Source: Gigantopelta aegis
Taxonomy: Eukaryota; Mollusca; Gastropoda; Neomphalida; Peltospiridae
Direction: 5' to 3'
Length of the DNA: 64,000 bases
Assembly (NCBI RefSeq): GCF_016097555.1
Contig: NC_054701.1
Coordinates: 2,022,091-2,086,090, forward strand
In this document: one piece after another, positions 18,101 to 49,066 of the stretch
Numbering within the stretch: the first letter of the stretch is position 1
How the letters are laid out: each line of letters begins with the position of its first letter
Notes under the pieces: model-generated
What the model was told of the DNA's origin: nothing
The model's database searches: none
Seen by the model: the letters and a program-made list of their open reading frames with translations, nothing else
Made by a program: the position numbers and the translations under genes

Positions 18101-21100
18101 TCCTGAATGGTGAGCCATGACTGGTATACATACCAAAATGCTTGTGTAAGATCCCTTGTAACATGCGGACGTCCACGACGTGTCCTGAATGGTGAGCCAT
18201 GACTGGTATACATATCAAAATGCTCGTGTAAGATCCCTTGTAACACGCGGACGTCCACGACGTGTCCTGAATGGTGAGCCATGACTGGTATACATATCAA
18301 AATGCTCGTGTAAGATCCCTTGTAACATGCGGACGTCCACGACGTGTCCTGAATGGTGAGCCATGACTGGTATACATATCAAAATGCTCGTGTAAGATCC
18401 CCTGTAACACGCGGACGTCCACGACGTGTCCTGAATGGTGAGCCATGACTGGTATACATATCAAAATGCTCGTGTAAGATCCCTTGTAACACGCGGACGT
18501 CCACGACGTGTCCTGAATGGTGAGCCATGACTGGTATACATATCAAAATGCTAGTGTAAGATCCCTTGTAACACGCGGACGTCCACGACGTGTCCTGAAT
18601 GGTGAGCCATGACTGGTATACATATCAAAATGCTCGTGTAAGATCCCCTGTAACACGCGGACGTCCACGACGTGTCCTGAATGGTGAGCCATGACTGGTA
18701 TACATATCAAAATGCTCGTGTAAGATCCCCTGTAACACGCGGACGTCCACGACGTGTCCTGAATGGTGAGCCATGACTGGTATACATATCAAAATGCTCG
18801 TGTAAGATCCCCTGTAACACGCGGACGTCCACGACGTGTCCTGAATGGTGAGCCATGACTGGTATACATATCAAAATGCTCGTGTAAGATCCCCTGTAAC
18901 ACGCGGACGTCCACGACGTGTCCTGAATGGTGAGCCATGACTGGTATACATATCAAAATGTTCGTGTAAGATCCCCTGTAACACGCGGACGTCCACGACG
19001 TGTCCTGAATGGTGAGCCATGACTGGTATACATATCAAAATGCTCGTGTAAGATCCCCTGTAACACGCGGACGTCCACGACGTGTCCTGAATGGTGAGCC
19101 ATGACTGGTATACATATCAAAATGCTCGTGTAAGATCCCCTGTAACACGCGGACGTCCACGACGTGTCCTGAATGGTGAGCCATGACTGGTATACATATC
19201 AAAATGCTCGTGTAAGATCCCTGTAACACGCGGACGTCCACGACGTGTCCTGAATGGTGAGCCATGACTGGTATACATATCAAAATGCTCGTGTAAGATC
19301 CCCTGTAACACGCGGACGTCCACGACGTGTCCTGAATGGTGAGCCATGACTGGTATACATATCAAAATGCTCGTGTAAGATCCCCTGTAACACGCGGACG
19401 TCCACGACGTGTCCTGAATGGTGAGCCATGACTGGTATACATATCAAAATGCTCGTGTAAGATCCCTTGCTGCTGCTATTGGAAAAGTGTTGCAGGTTTC
19501 CTCTGAAGACTATATTAGAATTACCAGATGTTAGACATCCATTAAAGATTAGTAATAAATTAATGTTCTCTAGTAATATTGTTAAAAAAACCCACTCCAT
19601 AACTGTGTTTGGTACAGACTGGATGACTGTTGGGTGAGTTATTCAGTTTGTGTGTTAGAGAGAAAATGTATTGTCATCACATGAACTACAGTTTATTGAT
19701 GGTATGGGATCTTTGCTCGAGCGGCCGTTATGTTATCATGTTACTCTGTTATAACCTTTAATATACAGGTCATGAAGCTCTCTTGGTGCATCCAAACAGT
19801 CAGCCATATAAATACTGACCAAACCCCAACATCATTAACAGTCAGCCCAATATAAATACTGACCAAACCCCAACATCATTAACAGTCAGCCCAATATAAA
19901 TACTGACCAAACCCCAACATCATTAACAGTCAGCCCAATATAAATACTGACCAAACCCCAACATCATTAACAGTCAGCCCAATATAAATACTGATCAAGC
20001 CCCAACATCATTAACAGTCAGCCCAATATAAATACTGACCAAACCCCAACATCATTAACAGTCAGCCCAATATAAATACTGACCAAACCCCAACATCATT
20101 AACAGTCAGCCCAATATAAATACTGATCAAGCCCCAACATCATTAACAGTCAGCCATATAAATACTGACCAAACCCCAACATCATTTGTATTTGATATCA
20201 TCATAGCTGTTAACAGAGCTAATCAACATTTTTAATACATATGGTTAAAATAGGTTAAATAATCTTTTACAAGTGGTTTGGTGCTTTGTTTTACTAAAAC
20301 CCCAATGAAATACTGGTTGAAAGGTGAAGTGTTTTATAGATAAAATCAAATAAAAATCATGTGTGTTTGCATCTGATGGTTTATTTTCTGCTCAGTGATA
20401 ATGATTTCTTCCTGCTCTTATCCATTTACAGATTCAAGTGTGATGAGTGTGACTTCGAAACTCTAAGGAAACACAAGTTTACTGTCCACAAAAAACTTCA
20501 CACAGGTGTGTACACACAGGTATACTGTTATTTAAACAGTAAAATCCATGTAATTAAATGTCAAAAAGGTTTTGTCTTTTCAGGATTATTGTAGCTGTAT
20601 TTAAAATACTTCATTTTAAACCTGCACATTTATCTACTACAGTACTTACATTTTGACTGATGTCAGACTTCAGGTTAATGAGAAGTAGACTTGTAGATCT
20701 CAGTGTGAAAACTTATTGTGGAATTAACTGCAAATGTTCACAGTTGCAACTTATACAAATACAACTTATTCCTCATCTTCCGATCATCAACAGAAGAAAA
20801 AGAGACCCAAACCAGATACATTATTTTCACATATTCCTTGACTGTTATCATACATATGTGAGACCATGTTTATGAGGTGTGTGTTTTATTTTACCTGTAC
20901 AGGTGTGTGAGACCATGTTTATGACGTGTGTGTTTTATTTTACCTGTACAGGTGTGCGAGACCATGTTTATGACCTGGGTTTTATTTTACCTGTCCATGT
21001 GTGCGAGACCATGTTTATGACGTGTGTTTTATTTTGCCTGTGCAGGTGTGTGAGACCATGTTTATGACGTGTGTGTTTTATTTTACCTGTACAGGTGTGT

Positions 21101-49066: not shown

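Follow-up and report, generated by a model that had tools for sequence, protein, structure and literature searches.

Dense tandem arrays with units of about 20–150 bp occur in the sampled parts of the Gigantopelta aegis genome, and some of them span edges between coding and non-coding DNA in several unrelated genes. Six such arrays reside in two paralogous zinc finger genes of the window, i.e., the whole analyzed stretch of 64,000 nucleotides, which is part of a 96.8-Mb contig in a genome of 1.15 Gb. The arrays most likely belong to the known kind of repeat termed mirages in amphioxus. They are probably exon-edge minisatellites that are tolerated at their position and lost more slowly from it, with the copied splice sites and stop codons being passive.

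Exon-edge arrays of the two window genes

Genes 1 and 2 are intact, consist of seven exons each and are of the BTB-C2H2 zinc finger type. Gene 1 resides on the plus strand and comprises exon 1 with the BTB domain (11002..12195; Pfam BTB, E 4.7e-18), exons 2–4 (12648-12854, 13703-13842, 20432-20505) and exons 5–7 (22920-23003, 23756-23850, 26291-26662). Gene 2 is encoded on the minus strand, with the BTB domain likewise in exon 1 (47846..49066; Pfam BTB, E 4.5e-16), followed by exons 2–4 (45817-45611, 44595-44453, 42952-42879) and exons 5–7 (41611-41528, 40655-40561, 38091-37705). Exon edges were set by comparing gene 1 with gene 2, by comparing four paralogues (see below) and by splice phase. 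With splicing at the authentic sites, gene 1 has an open frame of 721 aa and gene 2 one of 736 aa, each joining the N-terminal BTB domain and the C2H2 fingers. C2H2 models match the finger region of gene 1, and the fingers of gene 2 were judged from exon-by-exon alignment to gene 1.

All six edge-spanning arrays proposed in the first-pass annotation were recovered by TRF at authentic exon edges of both genes. In gene 1 (plus strand), they comprise (i) the exon 5 acceptor array (20860..22949; edge at 22919|22920) with about 43 copies of a 49-bp unit including 30 nt of exon and (ii) the stop codon array (26646..27514; stop ending at 26662) with about 25 copies of a 37-bp unit including 17 nt of coding sequence. 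The four arrays of gene 2 (minus strand) are located (i) at the exon 1 donor (47512..47877; last exon base 47846; 70 bp, about 5 copies, 32 nt of exon), (ii) at the exon 3 donor (43383..44511; last exon base 44453), where an 86/142-bp compound array contains 59 nt of exon and 9 copied donors, (iii) at the exon 6 donor (38434..40611; last exon base 40561; 90 bp, about 24 copies, 51 nt of exon) with 23 copied donors, and (iv) at the stop codon (37405..37714; stop ending at 37705; 30 bp, about 10 copies, 10 nt of coding sequence).

The exon-far ends given previously agree with those of TRF to within 5 bases; the exon-side ends were off by 1–51 bases, the two largest differences arising because TRF includes the exon part. 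Inspection of the raw sequence confirmed the authentic exon as the terminal unit of all six arrays. The exon is indeed copied together with adjoining intron or UTR, but the length of the copied stretch, previously put at 15–50 nt, was measured as 10–59 nt. The claim that the paralogues share no array-bearing edge proved wrong already for the window genes, both of which carry an array at the stop codon.

Recurrence in further genes and excess over chance

A search with exon 2 revealed two further paralogues, A and D, adjoining the window, each with counterparts to all seven exons within twenty neighbouring 10-kb stretches. Across 264 kb including the window, 122 merged arrays with a period of at least 10 cover 37.8 % of the DNA. 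Five of the arrays in A and D span edges and possess up to 346 copies, four being located at splice edges and one at a stop: the exon 1 donor and exon 5 acceptor in A, and the exon 2 acceptor, exon 3 donor and stop codon in D. The array at the exon 2 acceptor of D extends over 10.5 kb with about 346 copies of a 30-bp unit (L029-L030, genome C3:2124787-2135312); a longer compound unit lies directly beside the exon, with the 30-bp array leading up to it. A 31-bp array of 144 copies near the exon 6 acceptor of D ends a few bases away from the edge, with no exon copied. In exon 1 of D, a duplicated unit of 42 bp, a multiple of three, is present in two copies at the start codon (L031, genome C3:2136760-2136841). 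The exon 1 region of A (genome C3:2017626-2019406) is split across two open frames, which may reflect an additional intron or a break of the frame. In the TRF list, no array covers the point where the last open frame of A ends.

Array-bearing edges recur between paralogues: gene 2 shares the exon 1 donor with A and the exon 3 donor with D, gene 1 shares the exon 5 acceptor with A, and an arrayed stop codon is common to both window genes and D. Each of these edges is thus arrayed in two or three paralogues, with units that are unlike. From the interpretation in the first-pass annotation, non-random placement (see below) stands; the supposed absence of shared array-bearing edges does not, and the causes it proposed are not supported.

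The expectation by chance was modelled by treating each array as one unit-length seed at a random position of the array-collapsed gene, with spanning defined as coverage of at least 8 nt on either side of an edge; arrays were counted as single seeds because they swell introns. Array density was measured in the 264 kb and in short exon flanks of one assembly. The 51 edges considered in the four paralogues exclude the stop of A, all start codons and the putative additional intron of A in exon 1; the zinc finger loci L006-L021, where exon edges are not fixed, were kept outside the counts. Arrays span 5/24 donors, 3/24 acceptors and 3/3 stops, i.e., 11 spanning arrays versus 2.5 expected (36 arrays; Poisson P 6e-5). 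For the window genes alone, a pair picked for showing the pattern, 6 were found versus 1.55 expected (P 0.005), and for A and D, which had not been seen in the first pass, 5 versus 0.95 (P 0.003).

Two unrelated gene families were sampled independently of the zinc finger cluster. For the myosin motor domain, a Pfam search for exons gave 80 matches, 27 of which were examined with short flanks, spread over genes and including close pairs where available; 3/27 contain a stop inside the match. Chaperonin was represented by 8 of 64 matches, picked as close pairs. In both families exon edges were approximated by the ends of the Pfam matches, and the splice sites of the four spanning cases were inspected in the sequence (L063 being read by eye). 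Spanning arrays were observed at 3/54 myosin edges (L044, L046, L053), with exon tip and donor visible in the units, and at 1/16 chaperonin edges (L063). Taken together, 4 spanning arrays compare with 1.15 expected (16 arrays, P 0.03).

Edge-spanning arrays thus exceed density-adjusted chance 3.5- to 5-fold, the null being a model and the samples small. The earlier suggestion that chance placement is unlikely holds in exons on which it was not based (A and D; myosin and chaperonin). GC preference of the arrays was considered as a cause of the excess and rejected, as it raises the frequency at edges only about 1.2-fold (median 1.34). In length, 15 edge arrays exceed 69 others (1129 vs 413 bp, P 0.045).

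An EST1A/SMG6-like and a myotubularin-like neighbour gene also carry exon-edge arrays. Since both were found by screening arrays beside open frames, they are outside the chance counts. The former matches EST1A chains (E 8e-8), with a PIN-domain match just above and an EST1 domain match below the cut-off; the latter contains two adjoining phosphatase-domain stretches, one above and one below the cut-off, and two acceptor arrays in which the copied exon part measures just about 7 to 9 nt. The exon bearing the donor array on the myotubularin side has no match in Pfam or among solved structures and is tentatively taken by us, given its position, to be part of the myotubularin-like gene.

Formation and persistence of the arrays

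In the reading that we consider probable, frequent tandem duplication would generate arrays in many places. A duplication straddling a donor, an acceptor or a stop would leave one whole exon at the end of the array and would be tolerated because the exon beside the array stays whole; duplications wholly within exons would mostly be removed by selection. Growth by slippage or unequal exchange would proceed into the intron or UTR side only, and the array copies of splice sites and stops would be passive. All 67 copied splice sites of the window genes (23, 4 and 9 donors plus 31 acceptors, located by motif) break the frame when read through, and only the authentic sites, among those tried, leave an open frame. 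Since each copy breaks the frame, the authentic sites must win in splicing. The about four-fold excess at edges would then reflect tolerance plus slower loss, with some edge bias being possible; loss would be slower because deleting such an array whole would cut the exon.

Several observations speak for this passive origin. The copy numbers of 63 non-edge arrays are mostly near-whole, as simple tandem duplication involving little homology would give. In the 11 cluster arrays, the fraction of the unit contributed by exon (mean 0.63) is in line with random placement over the edge (KS P 0.12), and donors, acceptors and stops are all spanned. Median identity is 94 % in 15 edge arrays, a set including the four from the SMG6-like and myotubularin-like genes, as well as in 69 others. 

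Passive seeding alone, however, predicts only about 2.5 spanning arrays in the cluster, as opposed to the 11 observed. Slower loss predicts older edge arrays, but greater age is not seen by identity (15 vs 69 arrays), which is not lower at edges; concerted evolution can hide age. Moreover, the reduced variability of the exon parts detailed below counts against this reading, and simple tandem duplication does not predict that the far end of an edge array lies at most 14 nt from a further copy of the site, as is the case in 9/10 edge arrays (KS P 0.008, post hoc; exon 5 of A is the exception, and exon 2 of D is outside the ten).

This last result is also among the evidence for the first alternative, i.e., a birth process that itself favours coding/non-coding edges, be it by a fork or transcription obstacle, an R-loop, a nucleosome edge or short splice-like homology. 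The 3.5- to 5-fold excess, seen across all four paralogues, for A and D taken separately and for the myosin and chaperonin exons together, would follow from such a process, GC accounting for just about 1.2-fold of it, and the copy numbers of ten edge arrays are more fractional than the near-whole ones elsewhere (one-sided P 0.04). On the other hand, the exon share of the unit points to no fixed breakpoint, 2/10 of the edge arrays measured do have whole copy numbers, the samples are small and the null is a model. An edge-favouring birth process appears unlikely. Its purely splicing-coupled form does not fit because stop codons are spanned too (in 3/3 genes counted), which leaves the R-loop- or splicing-coupled slippage proposed in the first pass unsupported.

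Far ends near site copies and fractional copy numbers are a hint that the process may begin with a second copy of the exon tip. One may speculate that new minisatellites arise at coding/non-coding edges, stops included, with a several-fold higher frequency by edge-linked copying, in which a second exon-tip copy would arise in neighbouring DNA and the segment between the two would be amplified, so that introns and 3' ends would be continually rebuilt from exon tips. This specific scenario, with the far-end and copy-number results as its main support, is regarded as rather doubtful.

Selection could alternatively have kept the copied sites as decoys or for regulated splicing. GT is retained in 99/100 donor copies (five arrays), and the copied exon parts vary less per base than the intron or UTR parts in 7/9 arrays. 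Variant-type counts differ at P < 0.05 (uncorrected) in 2/9 arrays (gene 1 exon 5 and gene 2 exon 1), the exon part having fewer variant types in either case; the lower variation could result from conversion from the exon or from weak selection. The retention of GT is, however, about that given by the low overall divergence, AG is kept in only 32/42 acceptor copies (one array) and lost in 10/42, and the exon part varies more in 2/9 arrays (A exon 1, D stop). The 67/67 frame-breaking sites likewise oppose a use of the copies, and stop codon arrays have no such use. The decoy selection suggested in the first-pass annotation is accordingly unsupported and, in our view, very improbable.

An artefact by which repeats were expanded or collapsed during assembly is least credible of all, for although the result is based on a single assembly, units differ by scattered and shared substitutions, the array structure recurs on several contigs and the window genes are intact outside the arrays.

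Known boundary-spanning repeats and further repeats of the window

Mirages were described from amphioxus as minisatellite-like repeats in Adh3 and in the globins BflGb6 and BflGb9 (PMC3087553) and also in PGBD5 and TnC (PMC3902484). As far as the available portions of these reports describe them, their units measure 10–160 bp, span an intron/exon boundary on the donor or acceptor side and in many cases contain AG/GT signals, with the authentic exon being kept. The arrays studied here are alike in these traits: the unit spans an intron/exon boundary in four arrays of the window, four of A and D and four of myosin and chaperonin, and GT and AG are present in the majority of copies (99/100 and 32/42, respectively). 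Normal mRNA is still made from genes with mirages; judging from the sequence, only the authentic sites among those tried here would leave an open frame. Mirage copies vary in number between haplotypes or cells and are homogenised, with the boundary unit being exempt; here, the consensus of the copies differs from the authentic exon at 5/56 sites in exon 3 of D and at 0/51 sites in exon 6 of gene 2.

Beyond what the accessible parts of the amphioxus reports contain, the present arrays reach up to 346 copies and 10.5 kb, include stop codons and affect several unrelated gene families in one genome. Unlike in those parts, the excess over chance was estimated here. The host of the reported mirages is a cephalochordate, unlike the source of the present DNA.

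A literature search, mostly of papers outside subscription, retrieved boundary-spanning minisatellites elsewhere only from amphioxus and human segmental duplications. Human genes within segmental duplications contain internal tandem repeats at exon-intron boundaries which, according to the available part of the report, resemble the present arrays in being minisatellite expansions at such boundaries (PMC2812944). The human repeats as described there change the product of splicing and can give rise to new introns, whereas the frames of the window genes hold with the authentic sites only, among those tried. An abalone gene contains an intronic minisatellite, with no exon edge mentioned in the part of the report available (PMC6905558).

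Arrays with dozens of ready-made splice sites adjoin ordinary genes in the present genome, splicing has to pick one right site among many near-identical copies, and a single gene can contain its own splice site or stop codon in dozens of copies that seem to be of no use. In the model of intron gain by duplication, new introns start from tandem copies that contain splice signals; differing from this model, exons 1–7 match one another in all four paralogues apart from the apparent break in exon 1 of A, and no gained intron is evident. The gain of introns when a segment with splice signals is duplicated in tandem is among the work cited in the available part of PMC3087553. If the edge excess holds genome-wide, a natural system for studying birth sites of minisatellites as well as growth and gain of introns would be at hand, suggesting that mirages are no amphioxus oddity.

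The window contains further repeats. A SINE at about 23050-23330 presumably resembles a molluscan SINE, and a 374-aa open frame with matches to DDE and helix-turn-helix transposases is located between genes 1 and 2 (31505-32629). A LINE-like element (5130-6541) comprises two open frames, the second of which matches reverse transcriptase. The unit of a 60-bp array with about 12 copies (9974-10686) looks to us like the tRNA-like head of a SINE. Finally, a 70-bp array on the minus strand (58398-58961) has a unit that reads as acceptor-like sequence, 16 nt and GTAAAG, and its last unit continues as a short open frame; this array may be a further exon-edge array or a micro-exon in repeated form.
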